Origin: Dyella sp. GSA-30
GTDB taxonomy: Bacteria; Pseudomonadota; Gammaproteobacteria; Xanthomonadales; Rhodanobacteraceae
Assembly (NCBI RefSeq): GCF_027924605.1
Contig: NZ_AP027042.1
Location: 4,751,524-4,815,523 of the forward strand
Reading direction: 5' to 3'
Length of the DNA stretch: 64,000 nucleotides
Shown: piece by piece, positions 7,217-16,204 of the stretch
How the letters are laid out: the number at the start of each line of letters is the position of its first letter
Numbering within the stretch: position 1 is the stretch's first letter
Notes under the pieces: generated by a model
Databases searched by the model: none
What the model saw: only the letters and a program-made list of their open reading frames with translations
Told to the model about the DNA's origin: nothing
Program-made: the position numbers and the translations under genes

Positions 7217-7861
7217 ATGCGCGGACACCATTCGTTATTTCATGCGATGCGCCATCGGTTCCGGGCCATGCACGAGGAACACCACGACCGGGCTTTTGAA
7301 CACCATGCCGCACGCCACGGCTTTCGCGGCGGCCCGGGCGGGGATTTCTTTGCCGACTGGAACGAGCTGCGTGGCGGCGGCCGGCGCGGCGGCGGCCGCA
7401 TGTTCGGTCACGGCGATCTGAAACTGCTGCTGCTCGCCCTGCTCGAACAACAGCCGCGTCACGGCTACGAGATGATTCGCATCATCGAAGAAATGTTTCA
7501 TGGCCACTACTCGCCCAGCCCCGGCGCCATCTACCCCACGCTGACCATGCTGGAAGAAATGGGACATGCGCAGGTGGAGAACGAACAGGGCGGACGCAAG
7601 CTCTATGCAATCACCGACGAGGGACGCCGCTTCCTCGACGAAAACCGTGCCGCGGTCGAAGCCATGACCGAACGCACCGAACACAGCGCGCGCATGGCTG
7701 CGAAGATGTCAGCGCCGCAGGCCATCCGCCAGGCCATGCATGCCCTCAAGCATGCCCTGCTGATGCGCGGTACGGAGTGGACCCGTGCGGAAACCCAACG
7801 CGTTGCGGCCATTCTCGAAAAAGCGGCCACCGACATCGCCACCGGGCAGCGCCGTGAATAG
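7217..7861 (+). CDS. PadR-family transcriptional regulator, YqjI-like with His-rich N-terminus
   Basis: This DNA-binding repressor is probably metal-responsive. It has 214 residues. The first 34 carry ten histidines in HH and HxxxH groups, followed by a Gly/Arg-rich linker. The PadR winged-helix domain is at about residues 65-150 (FGHGDLKLLLLALLEQQPRHGYEMI, SPSPGAIYPTLTMLEEMG, GGRKLYAITDEGRRFL), and helices for dimerisation end the protein. E. coli YqjI has the same plan, a metal-binding His/Cys-rich head plus PadR, responds to nickel and represses the ferric reductase gene yqjH. Here a YqjH-like gene lies downstream in the same operon. The gene overlaps the Fur-like gene by 8 bases. Nickel specificity is inferred from the homologue. 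Confidence 0.85.
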   Translation: MRGHHSLFHAMRHRFRAMHEEHHDRAFEHHAARHGFRGGPGGDFFADWNELRGGGRRGGGRMFGHGDLKLLLLALLEQQPRHGYEMIRIIEEMFHGHYSPSPGAIYPTLTMLEEMGHAQVENEQGGRKLYAITDEGRRFLDENRAAVEAMTERTEHSARMAAKMSAPQAIRQAMHALKHALLMRGTEWTRAETQRVAAILEKAATDIATGQRRE

Positions 7862-8237
7862 CCCCGGCGAGGATCTGGATCGCTGGCAGCAACGCTGCAA
7901 GGCCGCTGGCCTGCAAATGACCGCCCCCCGACGCGCCGTGCTGGCTGCCCTGGTGGCACGACAGGACGCCATGGATGCGGTGGCGTTGCTTGTACAGGCA
8001 CGCGAACACTATCCACGCGCCAGTATCGGCACGGTGTACCGCTTCATGCGCGAGCTGGAACAGCACGCCCTGGTGCAGGTACACAGCGAGGCTCATGGGC
8101 GCATCCATTGGCGACTTGCCGGCACGGCGCAACCCGTTGCGACACCACCGGACATGGATGCCCTGGCCGTCGTGCGGCAAATCGCCGAGCGCCTGGGCTA
8201 CCGCTTGATTCGCCGCAACGGCGACTTCATCTACTGA
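7854..8237 (+). CDS. Short Fur-like transcriptional regulator lacking the usual metal-binding segment
   Basis: This is a ferric-uptake-regulator homologue of about 127 residues, starting at GTG 7854. That codon overlaps the end of the PadR gene (GTGAATAG). The winged helix is recognisable: AAGLQMTAPRRAVLAALVA, then ASIGTVYRFMRELEQHALV, then GRIHWRLAG. The region that normally carries the HHDHxxC-type zinc and iron ligands is absent. After the wing the chain passes directly to a short C-terminal segment resembling the last helix and strand (VVRQIAERLGYRLIRRNGDFIY). It has no cysteine pairs. It may dimerise poorly, bind metal differently or be metal-independent. Its place between yqjI-like and yqjH-like genes suggests a role in iron or nickel control. 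An in-frame ATG at 7785 lies inside the PadR gene and was not used. Confidence 0.75.
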   Translation: MNSPGEDLDRWQQRCKAAGLQMTAPRRAVLAALVARQDAMDAVALLVQAREHYPRASIGTVYRFMRELEQHALVQVHSEAHGRIHWRLAGTAQPVATPPDMDALAVVRQIAERLGYRLIRRNGDFIY

Positions 8238-8303
8238 TTCCCCGCCACGCCATCGCTCATCCGAGCCAGTAGCCGGCTGCTTACTTTCCCCCAAGGAGCA
8301 TTC

Positions 8304-9092
8304 ATGGCAAGACATGAACCACGCATGGTTCGTCATACGGTGGTGATGCGCCAGCTCGATGTGCTGCGCGTAGAACGTCTGACCCCGCACATGCAACGCA
8401 TCGTACTCGGCGGCCCCGAGCTGGCCGGCTTTATCAGCGCCGCGCCGGACGATCACGTCAAGCTGTTCTTTCCCAACAGCCACGGCGAGATCGTACGCCC
8501 GACACTCGGCGCCAACGGCCTGGAGTATCCGCCCGGCAAGGAACCCTCGCCCATGCGCGACTACACGCCACGCAGCCACGACGAAACCCGCGGCGAACTG
8601 ACCGTGGACTTTGTCCTGCATGGCGACGGTCCCGCGGCGACGTGGGCGGCGCAAGCCACACCGGGGCAACAGCTTGGTGCGGGCGGCCCACGGGGCTCGT
8701 TTATCGTCGCCGATGATTTCGATCACTACGTCATGGCGGGCGATGAAACCGCCCTGCCCGCGATCGGTCGCTGGCTGGAAGAGCTGCCGTCGAATGCCAA
8801 GGCGACTGTGTTCATTGAGATTCCCGACTCGGCCGACCGGCAGAGCCTGAGCTCGAATGCGCATTTCGATGTGCAGTGGCTGGATCGCAAGGGTGGCGAT
8901 GCTGCGAGCAGCACATTGCTGGAGCAGGCCTTGCAGCGGTTTGTGCCAGCCGACGGCGATACGTTTTATTGGATCGCTACCGAGTCGAAGCGTGCACGCA
9001 ACATGCGCCAATGGTTAAGCGAGCATCGCGACCTGCCCAAGGAGCATGTGAAAGCTACGGGCTATTGGAAGTTTGGCGATAGCGACGATTGA
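8304..9092 (+). CDS. Siderophore-interacting protein, YqjH-like NADPH-dependent ferric-chelate reductase
   Basis: It reduces ferric siderophores in the cytoplasm to release iron, using FAD and NADPH. The protein has 262 residues, close to E. coli YqjH. The FAD-binding beta-barrel (about residues 15-135) contains the motif RDYTPR (85-90) and GPAATWA. The C-terminal siderophore-interacting domain (about 140-260) holds DETALPAIGRWLEELP and FYWIATESKRARNMRQWL. A strong ribosome-binding site (AAGGAG) precedes ATG 8304. It is 66 bases downstream of the Fur-like gene and likely in one operon with both regulators, completing a regulator-regulator-enzyme unit. Repeat A copy 1 follows its stop. Confidence 0.88.
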   Translation: MARHEPRMVRHTVVMRQLDVLRVERLTPHMQRIVLGGPELAGFISAAPDDHVKLFFPNSHGEIVRPTLGANGLEYPPGKEPSPMRDYTPRSHDETRGELTVDFVLHGDGPAATWAAQATPGQQLGAGGPRGSFIVADDFDHYVMAGDETALPAIGRWLEELPSNAKATVFIEIPDSADRQSLSSNAHFDVQWLDRKGGDAASSTLLEQALQRFVPADGDTFYWIATESKRARNMRQWLSEHRDLPKEHVKATGYWKFGDSDD

Positions 9093-11559: not shown

Positions 11560-12489
11560 GTGCAGCCCGCCGCCAAAGCCCGCCTACAAATCCACTTCTG
11601 CGTCCTGCTCTGGGGATTCACGGCCATTCTCGGCAAGCAGATCACCCTGCAGGCGCTGCCGCTGGTCTGGTGGCGTACTTTGCTGGTGACCTCGGCGCTG
11701 TTGCTGGTGCCCAGGGTATGGCGCGGGCTCAAGGCCATGCCGGCCAGATTGCGCTGGGCGTATGCCGGTATCGGTGCAATCGTGTCGCTGCACTGGCTGA
11801 CGTTTTATGCGGCGATCAAATTATCGAACGCATCGGTCGGCGCAACCTGTATTGCCCTGGGCCCGGTCTTTCTCGCTTTTATCGAGCCATGGATCGCGCG
11901 CCGTCGCTTTGATCCGCGCGAGCTGCTGATCGGTCTCCTGGTCATTCCCGGCGTCGCCATGGTGGTGGGTGGCGTGCCGGTGGAAATGCGGCTGGGTATT
12001 GCGGTGGGCGCGCTATCTGCGCTGCTGGTGGCCATCTTCGGCTCGCTCAACAAGCGCCTGGTCGAGCATGGCGATCCACTGACCGTCACCTGCATCGAAC
12101 TGGGTTCGGGCACGCTTTTTCTCACCTTGCTCGCACCGTTTCTTCCGCATGCGGGCCCGGCTTTCATGCTGCCCGGTGCGCATGATGCAACGCTGCTGCT
12201 CCTGCTGTCATTCGGCTGCACCTTGCTGCCCTTCGCCTTGGCGCTGGTCGCACTGCGTCAGATGAGCGCCTTCGAAACGCAGATGGTGACCAATCTCGAA
12301 CCGGTGTATGCGATCGTGCTGGCTATCGTATTGCTGGGCGAACAACGTCAGCTCGACACCTGGTTCTATCTTGGCGTCGCGGTCATCCTGACTGCCGTGT
12401 TCGCCCATCCTTTCCTGCACCGCCGCGATAGCCAGCCGGCGAAGACCGAGCTGCTGGCTACCGCGGAGAGCCACAACATCGTCGATTAG
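11560..12489 (+). CDS. EamA/DMT-family inner-membrane transporter
   Basis: This drug/metabolite transporter superfamily permease has 309 residues. Ten hydrophobic segments form two EamA repeats, the first from about residue 8 (LQIHFCVLLWGFTAILGK) and the second from about residue 150 (LGIAVGALSALLVAIFGSLNKRL). The typical end of repeat two is present (FETQMVTNLEPVYAIVLAIVLLGEQ). The frame begins at GTG 11560; the nearby ATG at 11531 is out of frame. The family exports amino acids, nucleosides or other metabolites, and the substrate here cannot be assigned. It lies 48 bases after the AsmA gene and converges on the copper-operon cytochrome gene, whose stop is 11 bases away. Confidence 0.85.
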   Translation: MQPAAKARLQIHFCVLLWGFTAILGKQITLQALPLVWWRTLLVTSALLLVPRVWRGLKAMPARLRWAYAGIGAIVSLHWLTFYAAIKLSNASVGATCIALGPVFLAFIEPWIARRRFDPRELLIGLLVIPGVAMVVGGVPVEMRLGIAVGALSALLVAIFGSLNKRLVEHGDPLTVTCIELGSGTLFLTLLAPFLPHAGPAFMLPGAHDATLLLLLSFGCTLLPFALALVALRQMSAFETQMVTNLEPVYAIVLAIVLLGEQRQLDTWFYLGVAVILTAVFAHPFLHRRDSQPAKTELLATAESHNIVD

Positions 12490-12500
12490 TGCAGCGTCGA

Positions 12501-13118
12501 TTAATGCGCGGCCGAGGCCGGTGATGCCGGATGCTCGTCGTGGTCGTGATCGTGGTCATGATCGCCATCATGATCGTCATGCCCTTCGTCATGATGATGG
12601 TGTCCGCCACCGTGCCCGTCGTCACCGTGCGTACCGGCCAACGCAACAAAGCCATCTTCATCGAGCTTGGGCAACTGGCGGATAAAGGCCACCATGTCCC
12701 AGATGGCATCATCGCTATGGCTGACACCCCATGCCGGCATGGCCGTCATCTTGACGCCGTGTTTGATCACCCAGAACGCCTTGGCCGGATCGGCGATGCC
12801 GAGCTTGGCCAGATCCGGCGGCTGCGGATAAAGCCCCTGCCGCAACTCGGTGCTGCGCATGCCGGGCGTCAAATGACATGCGGCGCACATCTGCGCGTAA
12901 TGTTCGGCACCCGAGTGAATGCGTGTCTGGGCATCCAGGTCCGTAGGCACCGTTACACCGGCCGACTCTCGTGCAATCGATCGCTCGCGCAGTGTCTCGA
13001 CGATCTGCGTGGTTACGCCCCAATGGGGTCTGTCCGCGCCGATGTCATAAACGCCGGAATATACAAAGGCGGCGACAGCCACCGCGAGTATCACCAAAAC
13101 AACAAACAATGTTTTCAA
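12501..13118 (-). CDS. Membrane-anchored c-type cytochrome with His/Asp-rich C-terminal tail (last gene of copper operon)
   Basis: This haem protein of about 205 residues faces the periplasm. A single anchor opens the protein (KTLFVVLVILAVAVAAFVYSG). The haem-binding motif CAACH is at residues 78-82 and a likely axial methionine is in TAMPAWG (Met127). From about residue 163 the tail holds 13 histidines in some 34 residues, alternating with Asp (DHDHDHDHDEH), a plausible copper or nickel sink. The start is TTG 13118, preceded by AGGGGA; the open frame continues upstream but no better start with a ribosome site is seen. It begins 22 bases after the copB stop, so it is the third structural gene of the copper operon. 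Its redox partner is unknown; CopA is an obvious candidate. Confidence 0.8.
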   Translation of the reverse strand: MKTLFVVLVILAVAVAAFVYSGVYDIGADRPHWGVTTQIVETLRERSIARESAGVTVPTDLDAQTRIHSGAEHYAQMCAACHLTPGMRSTELRQGLYPQPPDLAKLGIADPAKAFWVIKHGVKMTAMPAWGVSHSDDAIWDMVAFIRQLPKLDEDGFVALAGTHGDDGHGGGHHHHDEGHDDHDGDHDHDHDHDEHPASPASAAH

Positions 13119-13140: not shown

Positions 13141-14031
13141 CTAGAACCAGAAACGGATGCCGGCGACCCAGGTCGTTTCGTGCGCGGCGGTATCAAGCAG
13201 GACATCGGTGGGTGCGTTGGCGGTGCGCCGGTAAGCCCACGACACGCCGACATAGGGCGCAAGGCGTCGGCTGAATTCATAGCGCAAACGCAAACCGGCT
13301 TCGGCTTCGGACAGACCGGCGCGAATCGCACGCTGCGGATCGTTGCGGCTATAAAGGTTCAGCTCGATCTTCGGCGTCAATATCAGCCGCTGGGTAAACA
13401 GCACGTCATAGCTGCTTTCCAGGCGCAGAGTCGTACGTCCTTGCTCTCCTGCATAGAATGTTGCCTGTGTCTCGAACCAGTACGGCGCGAGACCTTGCAC
13501 ACCGAAGGCCAGCCATTGCCGCTTGGGCCCGTTACCGATGTCCTGGCGCAGACCAAGCTGACCATCCCAATAAGTCGTCCAGGCATGACCCCATTGCACG
13601 TCAACGCGTCCATCTTGCGTTACGCCACGCTGGCGCTCGCCCTCGCTGCGTATCCACAGACGATCGATATCGCTGCCCCACCAGCCCTCGCCCTCCCAGG
13701 CTGTGGCGTTGTCGCCGCCTGTGGTGCGCGTACGCTCCAGGCGGTCGATCAACAGCATGCCGCGCGTGCTGGTGTCGTGCATATCCATCGCGTCGGACAT
13801 GGCATGCTGTGCCATGACATGCTGCGGCGGCGGTGGCGGAACGTGATCGTTCGGCGGCAATGGCAACGATGAAGCGGCGGCCGGAGGCGCGTCGTGATGC
13901 TGATGCGGCATGGACATGCCGGGCATATCGTCCATCGGCATATCCTGCATGTTGTCCATGGGCTTCGCCTGTTGCGCATACGCCAGGCCCGAAACACCGC
14001 ATAGCAGAAGAAACATCAAAAGCCGCTTCAT
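13141..14031 (-). CDS. copB: Copper resistance protein B (outer membrane)
   Basis: This outer-membrane beta-barrel protein is part of periplasmic and outer-membrane copper sequestration or export. It has 296 residues from ATG 14031, overlapping the copA stop by 4 bases (ATGA). A signal peptide (MKRLLMFLLLCGVSGLAYA) precedes a Met/His/Pro-rich copper-binding segment at about residues 22-90 (MDNMQDMPMDDMPGMSMPHQ and further MHDT, HAMSDAMDM). The CopB domain follows from about residue 110 (WWGSDIDRLWIRSEGE) and ends in a typical barrel C-terminus (WVAGIRFWF). An in-frame start at 14208 would lie inside copA and was rejected. Confidence 0.93.
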   Translation of the reverse strand: MKRLLMFLLLCGVSGLAYAQQAKPMDNMQDMPMDDMPGMSMPHQHHDAPPAAASSLPLPPNDHVPPPPPQHVMAQHAMSDAMDMHDTSTRGMLLIDRLERTRTTGGDNATAWEGEGWWGSDIDRLWIRSEGERQRGVTQDGRVDVQWGHAWTTYWDGQLGLRQDIGNGPKRQWLAFGVQGLAPYWFETQATFYAGEQGRTTLRLESSYDVLFTQRLILTPKIELNLYSRNDPQRAIRAGLSEAEAGLRLRYEFSRRLAPYVGVSWAYRRTANAPTDVLLDTAAHETTWVAGIRFWF

Positions 14032-15743
14032 GCCACCACCACTTCGCGCATCATGCCCGCTTCCATGTGATAGAGCAGATGACAGTGGTAGGCCCAGCGG
14101 CCGATCGCATCGGCGCTGACGCGATAGGCCACGCGTTGTGCCGGCTGCACCACCACGGTGTGCTTGCGTACCTGGAACGCGCCATCGGGAGACTCCAGCT
14201 CGCTCCACATGCCGTGCAAATGGATCGGGTGAGTCATCATGGTGTCGTTGATCAGCACCACGCGCACGTGTTCACCGTAGCGCAACTGGATAGGGCCGGT
14301 GTCGGAGAAGCGCTTGCCGTCGAACGACCAGAGATAACGTTCCATGTTGCCGGTGAGATGCAACGTCATCTCTCGATCGACCCTGGGTGAAATCGGCGCA
14401 TCGACCGCATGCAGGTCGGCATAACTGAGCACGCGCCGGCCGTTGTCGCGCAAGCCCACACCAGGATCATCCAGGTTGCTGCGCGGCTGCGGTACGCGCA
14501 TGTCGATCTCCGGACCATGGCCGCGCATCGACATGTCGCCCATATCGCCGTGGTCCATGGCCATCCCGGGCATGCCATGCATGTCGTGGCTCATGCCACC
14601 GTGCTGCATCTGTCCCATCATGTCGCTCATGGCGAGCAAGGGACGAGAATCGAGCGTCGGCACATCGGCCACCATGCCGGCTCGCGGTGCCAGCGTGGCA
14701 CGGGCAAAACCGGAACGATCCATGCTCTGCGCAAAGATCGTCCAGGCGCGGTCGGCCGCCGGCTCGACGATCACATCGTAGGTCTCCGCGTTGGCGATGC
14801 GAAACTCGTCGACGGTCACCGGTTCGATCGACTGCCCGTCGGCGGCCACCACGGTCATTTTGAGACCGGGGATACGCACATCGAAAAAAGTCATCGACGA
14901 GCCATTGATAAAACGCAGCCGTACTTTTTCGCCCGCATCGAACAAACCGGTCCAGTTGCCCGCTGGCGTGCTGCCGTTGATCAGATAGGTATAGGTCATG
15001 GCCGACACATCGGCCAGATCGGTGGGATCCATGCGCATCTGGTTCCACATGCGCCGTTCGCACAACGCCTGCGACAGACCTTGCCGGCTGGCGTCGCGCA
15101 GAAAGTCGCCCATCGTGCGCTTGCCGATGTTGTAGTAATCGCTTTGCTTTTTCAGGTTGGCGAAGATCCGTTCCGGATCGGTATCGGTCCAATCGCTAAG
15201 CAGGATCACGTGCTCGCGTTGCACCGCGTGACGTTCCTGGCGCGGCTCGATCACGATCGGCCCATACAGACCGGTCTGTTCCTGGAAACGCGAATGGCTG
15301 TGATACCAGTACGTGCCTGCCTGGTTCACCGTGAAGCGATAGACGTATTCACCGCCCGGCGGGATGCCGTCGAAACTCAAGCCCGGCACGCCGTCCATAT
15401 CGGCCGGCAGGACGATGCCATGCCAGTGAATCGAACTGGTAACGGTTAGACGGTTGCGCACGCGAATAGTCACTGTGTCGCCCTGGCGCCAGCGCAATAA
15501 GGGCGCCGGCAACTGGCCGTTGACCACGGTGGCTACACGCTTGCTCCCAGTGAAATCCACCGGCAGCTCACCGATTTCCAACTCGAAATGGGTGCCGCTC
15601 AGTTCGGTGCGCGGCGTGTCAATGGCGGCAAAAACATCGCCGCCGCGAAACAGCCCGAGCCCGGCGGCGACACCGCCCAGGGTCAGACCTTGAACGAAGC
15701 GCCGACGCGGCAGCGAAAGGCCGCGCGGATCCTGCTTACTCAT
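14028..15743 (-). CDS. copA: Copper resistance multicopper oxidase CopA
   Basis: This periplasmic laccase-like oxidase binds and probably oxidises Cu(I). It has 571 residues. A Tat signal is present (LPRRRFVQGLTLGG), so it is exported folded with its cofactor. The cupredoxin copper-site motifs are intact: IHWHGIVLP and YWYHSHSRFQEQTG near the N-terminus, HPIHLHGMW and HCHLLYHMEAGMM near the C-terminus. Between them a Met/His-rich stretch at about residues 370-405 (MSDMMGQMQHGGMSHDMHG and following) supplies extra copper sites. It is the second gene of the copL-copA-copB-cytochrome unit, 110 bases after copL, and overlaps copB by 4 bases. Confidence 0.95.
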   Translation of the reverse strand: MSKQDPRGLSLPRRRFVQGLTLGGVAAGLGLFRGGDVFAAIDTPRTELSGTHFELEIGELPVDFTGSKRVATVVNGQLPAPLLRWRQGDTVTIRVRNRLTVTSSIHWHGIVLPADMDGVPGLSFDGIPPGGEYVYRFTVNQAGTYWYHSHSRFQEQTGLYGPIVIEPRQERHAVQREHVILLSDWTDTDPERIFANLKKQSDYYNIGKRTMGDFLRDASRQGLSQALCERRMWNQMRMDPTDLADVSAMTYTYLINGSTPAGNWTGLFDAGEKVRLRFINGSSMTFFDVRIPGLKMTVVAADGQSIEPVTVDEFRIANAETYDVIVEPAADRAWTIFAQSMDRSGFARATLAPRAGMVADVPTLDSRPLLAMSDMMGQMQHGGMSHDMHGMPGMAMDHGDMGDMSMRGHGPEIDMRVPQPRSNLDDPGVGLRDNGRRVLSYADLHAVDAPISPRVDREMTLHLTGNMERYLWSFDGKRFSDTGPIQLRYGEHVRVVLINDTMMTHPIHLHGMWSELESPDGAFQVRKHTVVVQPAQRVAYRVSADAIGRWAYHCHLLYHMEAGMMREVVVA

Positions 15744-15853: not shown

Positions 15854-16204
15854 TCAGGCGAAGTCATTCGCCGGTGGCCGTAATGGAGGGGATTGCGCGC
15901 GCTGTGGCGCGGAGCGGTGTCCCTGCACTGCCAGCGGATGGGCTGGTAGCCGGGAGATCATGCCCAGTGCCACGGTCGGTGGCAGCGTGGCCGGGGCGTG
16001 CACGCAGGCACAGTCGGCGGTAGCCATCGGACCCTGGCCATGCGCATGTCCGGTATCGTGCATGCCCGCGCTGTCGGGCATATGCATGCCGGTACAACAA
16101 TCGGTCTGCGCCCAGGCCATGCTCACCAGCGCCAGCCACGCACACAGCGCCCAGGCCAACACATGGCGGGAACGGCGGAAGGGCTGGAGTGAGCGACGGG
16201 GCAT
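15854..16204 (-). CDS. copL: CopL-like metal-binding protein heading the copper operon
   Basis: This small secreted protein of 116 residues starts at ATG 16204. A hydrophobic export signal spans residues 12-34 (HVLAWALCAWLALVSMAWA). A short metal-binding cluster of Cys, His and Met follows (TDCCTGMHMPDSAGMHDTGH, then ATADCACVH), and the rest is low-complexity and Pro-rich. In xanthomonads copL lies directly upstream of copAB and is needed for copper-inducible expression. The same position here, 110 bases before copA, supports the name. It could act as a sensing or buffering peptide. An upstream in-frame ATG (16348) lies in the rlmJ promoter region and was not used. Confidence 0.8.
   Translation of the reverse strand: MPRRSLQPFRRSRHVLAWALCAWLALVSMAWAQTDCCTGMHMPDSAGMHDTGHAHGQGPMATADCACVHAPATLPPTVALGMISRLPAHPLAVQGHRSAPQRAQSPPLRPPANDFA

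Follow-up and report, generated by a model that had tools for sequence, protein, structure and literature searches.

A 205-amino-acid cytochrome c is encoded at 12501-13118, on the minus strand of the window (the whole 64,000-nucleotide stretch of DNA that was analysed), and its TTG-started gene is the last of a copL-copA-copB row. The features of the locus, all of which lie on the minus strand, are as follows.

12501..13118, minus strand: almost certainly the copM orthologue, a membrane-anchored monohaem cytochrome c with a His/Asp-rich C-terminal tail; TTG start
12504..12662, minus strand: His/Asp-rich tail of 53 residues (14 His, 16 Asp/Glu), predicted to be disordered (AlphaFold)
12738..12740, minus strand: codon of Met127 in the MPAW motif, the probable sixth (axial) haem ligand; the residue is invariant, and the ligand role is inferred
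12873..12887, minus strand: CAACH (residues 78-82), the haem-binding motif, with its two Cys and its His invariant in the family alignment
13141..14031, minus strand: copB, copper resistance protein B with a Met/His-rich N-terminal part (PF05275, E=3e-77)
14028..15743, minus strand: copA, multicopper oxidase with a Met-rich insert (TIGR01480, 892 bits against a cut-off of 479)
15854..16204, minus strand: copL-like gene, small Cys/His-containing protein; start MPRRSLQ chosen

The copA and copB genes overlap by 4 bp (ATGA, 14028-14031), and 22 bp separate the copB stop from the cytochrome start. The TTG at 13118 fits as a start codon, lying 7 nt after a ribosome-binding-like GAGGGG. Next comes a convergent gene for an EamA transporter, whose end at 12489 lies 11 bp past copM; the cytochrome is therefore the last gene of the operon. 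The CopL-like product matched Xanthomonas CopL weakly (35% identity over 80 amino acids, E=2e-5 without composition correction) and, like Xanthomonas CopL, drew no Pfam hit at a threshold as lax as E=1. The gene occupies the same location in Dyella relatives, and may be a leader gene that senses copper ahead of copA.

No copG, copC, copD or copF was found downstream of copM in the window, and the DUF411 (CopG) model gave no matches genome-wide, while the same model matched two plasmid controls. The genome carries one copy each of copA, copB and copM; the sole candidate for a second copM, a 32% match within another protein, was rejected. The operon of this genome is thus a shortened, chromosomal version, copLABM. 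A scan for promoters and terminators gave results at chance level. Elsewhere in the window, at 7217-9092 on the plus strand, a row comprising a His/Arg-rich PadR-like regulator, a Fur-like ORF and a siderophore-interacting-protein-like ORF was seen by eye.

Identity of the cytochrome as CopM

A tblastn search against plasmids led to Xanthomonas copper-resistance plasmids on which an annotated cytochrome c lies directly 3' of copB, with the DUF411 gene (copG) next after it or one gene later. The gene copM is named in published Xanthomonas and Stenotrophomonas copLABMG(CD)F operons (PMC10924375, PMC11651105, PMC10667641, PMC2643945), which are spelled copLABMGF or copLABMGCDF, and its slot matches the position of the cytochrome. 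The window protein was 47% identical to CopM of X. citri pXAS220 over 195 amino acids (E=6e-59), with the similarity extending beyond the haem domain into the N-terminal region; the CopA pair from the window and the Xanthomonas plasmid was 56% identical, and the CopB pair 40%. The gene order of the window, copL-copA-copB followed by a cytochrome, was seen at L113 and L117. Given this identity, the shared slot after copB and the published gene, there is little room for doubt that the window cytochrome is the known CopM and that its gene is the copM orthologue in a Dyella-like bacterium whose copLABM copper-resistance operon is chromosomal. The sequence-only reading had correctly described a membrane-anchored cytochrome c at the end of a copLAB row, as confirmed by the ORF, its Pfam domains, its helix and the CopA, CopB and CopL-like neighbors. 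Its further claim that this combination lay outside known Cop systems was wrong, and novelty of the operon slot was rejected on the strength of the plasmid annotations and the papers.

CopM of Xanthomonas and Stenotrophomonas (X. citri pXAS220, X. vesicatoria pLMG911.1) shares with the window protein the slot after copB, an N-terminal anchor, the conserved pre-haem region, the haem domain and a His-rich tail. The tail of the window protein is shorter (53 amino acids versus 98-122 residues with 16-17 His in Xanthomonas) and more Asp-rich, and the operon stops at copM, whereas the complete copLABMG(CD)F operon continues with copG and copF. Pseudomonas plasmids carry copA-x-copB-cytochrome c clusters. 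The cluster of P. luteola (NZ_CP044084) likewise has a cytochrome c right after copB, with a 113-amino-acid His-rich tail, but differs in that one additional small gene separates copA from copB, genes of a two-component regulator lie nearby and no copL is annotated. CopM of Synechocystis (copMRS) shares the name and an involvement in copper resistance; it is set apart by description only, as titles and abstracts (PMC4335983) present it as a copper-binding protein or metallochaperone and do not describe it as a cytochrome. No CopM biochemistry was found in the literature searched, and a paper on the two Cop systems of P. putida made no useful mention of a cytochrome. Neither the gene nor its place in the operon is unusual.

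Domain structure and haem site

The protein begins with a membrane helix (residues 2-21), which is followed by a helical stretch ahead of the haem, by the haem-c domain and by the tail. Both Cytochrome_CBB3 (PF13442, E=1.5e-14) and Cytochrom_C (PF00034, E=7.5e-5) matched above their Pfam cut-offs. Residues C78, C81, H82, Met127 and Trp140 were invariant across 50 aligned sequences, and a GxYxxAADxPH region preceding the haem, outside the Pfam haem domain, was also conserved. Among proteins of solved structure, the haem domain matched 6f0k_E (E=6.5e-12) and 3mk7_C (E=2.7e-10) best in sequence; these closest relatives are the alternative complex III monohaem subunit and CcoP of the cbb3 oxidase. 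Foldseek with the predicted CopM, a model without haem whose haem loop was of low confidence (mean pLDDT 58-68, residues 81-100), gave no matches below E=0.001; the weak matches obtained were alternative complex III cytochrome (the best, E=0.046), cytochrome c552 and cytochrome c6. CcoP and the alternative complex III cytochrome belong to the same haem-c fold family and are subunits of respiratory complexes, outside cop operons. CcoP/FixP of cbb3 oxidases has two haem-c domains and is encoded with oxidase subunits, whereas CopM has one CxxCH and is encoded in a cop operon. As judged from its sequence, single-haem CopM does not support an oxidase reading.

Linkage of copM to copB

The family of the host was sampled with 147 genomes from 26 genera, and absence on a short contig was scored as absence, so that the counts are lower bounds. 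A homologue was present in 98 of the 147 genomes. Most homologues (84 of 118, in 74 genomes) lay directly 3' of a CopB domain, on the same strand and with a gap of 16-214 bp. Homologues mostly away from cop genes would have told against the sequence-only reading, and within the family this was not the case. Counted from copB, 84 of 141 genes were followed by the cytochrome and 57 were without it. Across the class, only 18 of 185 genomes, the window's own included, carried a homologue; where coordinates were read, one besides the window's own lay directly 3' of copB (G171) and two lay 2-2.5 kb away on its other side (G317, G296). The fixed slot after copB is therefore mainly a trait of the host's family and of Xanthomonas and Pseudomonas plasmids. 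On a tree of 153 homologues, in which few alignment columns leave the deep branches weak, copB linkage required 22 changes compared to 51 in shuffles. The linkage is therefore clustered on the tree, yet it has been gained or lost often.

Homologues without copB often kept copper or metal neighbors. P1B-type ATPases were found near the cytochrome at three loci (L043, L051, L079), such ATPases carrying HMBD, YHS or HMA metal domains, and copC/copD lay near it in Novosphingobium. At two loci an outer-membrane efflux protein and a two-domain multicopper oxidase lie beside the CopM-like cytochrome, forming a recurring module without copB in which the cytochrome comes last (L040:3106-6615, L066:2988-6546). 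No recognizable copper neighbors were present at the Nitrosomonas (L102) and Ferrovum loci examined. In the Nitrosomonas group (L102-L112) the CopM-like cytochromes form a clade whose His-rich tails are short, and at L102 the neighbors are a nitrite/sulphite reductase gene and one for a LysR-like regulator.

The respiratory nature of the closest solved relatives and of the weak structural matches, together with the few lineages in which a CopM-like cytochrome lies away from copper genes, would suit a respiratory backup, that is, a carrier made under copper stress that keeps electrons reaching the oxidases when copper damages other cytochromes, its tail just shielding its own haem. Such a role is unlikely, as the association with copB and with other genes of metal resistance is strong and recurs, which a general carrier would not require. 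Alternatively, the haem could take electrons from the CopA multicopper oxidase or supply them to it, the two proteins forming a relay. The presence of copA in the same operon neighborhood points this way, as do the copies at L040 and L066 that directly follow a two-domain multicopper oxidase. Multicopper oxidases deliver electrons to O2 unaided, however, and with 57 of the 141 copB loci lacking CopM, a relay of this kind is quite improbable.

Variation of the tail

The richest 34-residue stretch of the tail contains exactly 13 His, the number given by the sequence-only reading. The tail includes an HDHDHDHD run, and its pLDDT is near 50. Codons are mixed for both His (8 CAT, 6 CAC) and Asp (7 GAC, 6 GAT). 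In the clade of the window, Dyella and its sister genera, all 13 members have a tail of 29-66 residues with 6-14 His and many Asp; together with the Xanthomonas tails, this recurrence takes the His-rich tail beyond a single strain, so that the second outcome that would have told against the sequence-only reading did not arise either. The HDHDHDHD run, the use of both codons for each residue and the recurrence in all close relatives indicate that the tail is more than chance. An origin as a slippage artefact was rejected, since the tandem repeat (TRF) array is weak (12-bp unit, 3.3 copies, score 52) and the tail recurs in relatives, which likewise argues against a sequencing or strain accident.

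Many other lineages have a short Met/Asp-rich tail (KAPPDEDMDM...) with 0-5 His, and the His count ranges from 0 to 20 over the family. The tail was complete in 72 distinct copB-linked copies, of which 39 had 5 or more His and 23 had 10 or more; among 80 scored as unlinked, some at loci too short to show copB, the corresponding numbers were 36 and 5. Both sets are raw counts that ignore kinship. Several relatives have an NTF2-like (DUF4440/SnoaL) domain fused at the C-terminus, directly after the His-rich tail (L116:5920-7032, E=1.5e-11; L129:628-1450 and L016:900-1737, both weaker; about 10 others), a gene fusion that hints at a possible functional partner. X. vesicatoria pLMG911.1 has a separate NTF2-family gene after copM (L117:6707-7216).

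The 13 His in 34 residues, interspersed with Asp in a stretch predicted to be disordered, and the Met/His-rich stretches that CopA and CopB also possess would fit a tail that serves as a copper metallochaperone or sponge, with the haem domain merely its folded carrier. Strict conservation of the haem core (CxxCH, Met127, Trp140) beside so variable a tail makes this reading quite improbable. Copies adjacent to copB have a median of 5.5 His in the tail and several have 0-2, which precludes copper binding by the tail as the central function of the family. Since the tail varies freely while the haem core is fixed, the comparison argues that the function kept across the family lies in the haem, to which the tail adds an optional boost.

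Discussion

The best explanation as a whole, to which we give an even chance, is that the copM orthologue acts as an auxiliary periplasmic copper handler. CopM would be a periplasmic protein held at the inner membrane by its anchor, and so would bring a redox centre and a copper-binding segment together on the outer side of that membrane. The tail may gather excess copper close to the membrane, while the haem would shuttle electrons to or from periplasmic copper or a partner, the likeliest direction being oxidation of Cu(I) to Cu(II) with the electron passed to the respiratory chain. This combination of electron transfer and buffering by a tethered periplasmic protein is a tentative proposal, somewhat less probable than not. 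CopM would supplement the work of the CopA oxidase, and a protein that adds to the action of CopA would be an auxiliary rather than a core resistance factor. The auxiliary role agrees with the statement in PMC10924375, in the passage citing Behlau 2011, that the Xanthomonas cytochrome c CopM is needed for full copper resistance. The 57 copB genes without a cytochrome indicate that CopA and CopB do not need CopM. Copper redox chemistry and contact with CopA are putative, and the Nitrosomonas and Ferrovum loci count against this explanation.

It is very unlikely that CopM is a self-contained redox copper sponge, in which Cu(I)/Cu(II) would be loaded by the tail and oxidised into the respiratory chain by the haem on its tether; if so, copper could be detoxified without the need for O2 at the CopA oxidase. 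CopM is named in the copper operons of plant-associated and clinical bacteria, and the comparative pattern of a fixed haem core, a variable tail and a common slot after copB shows which part of the protein to test first.
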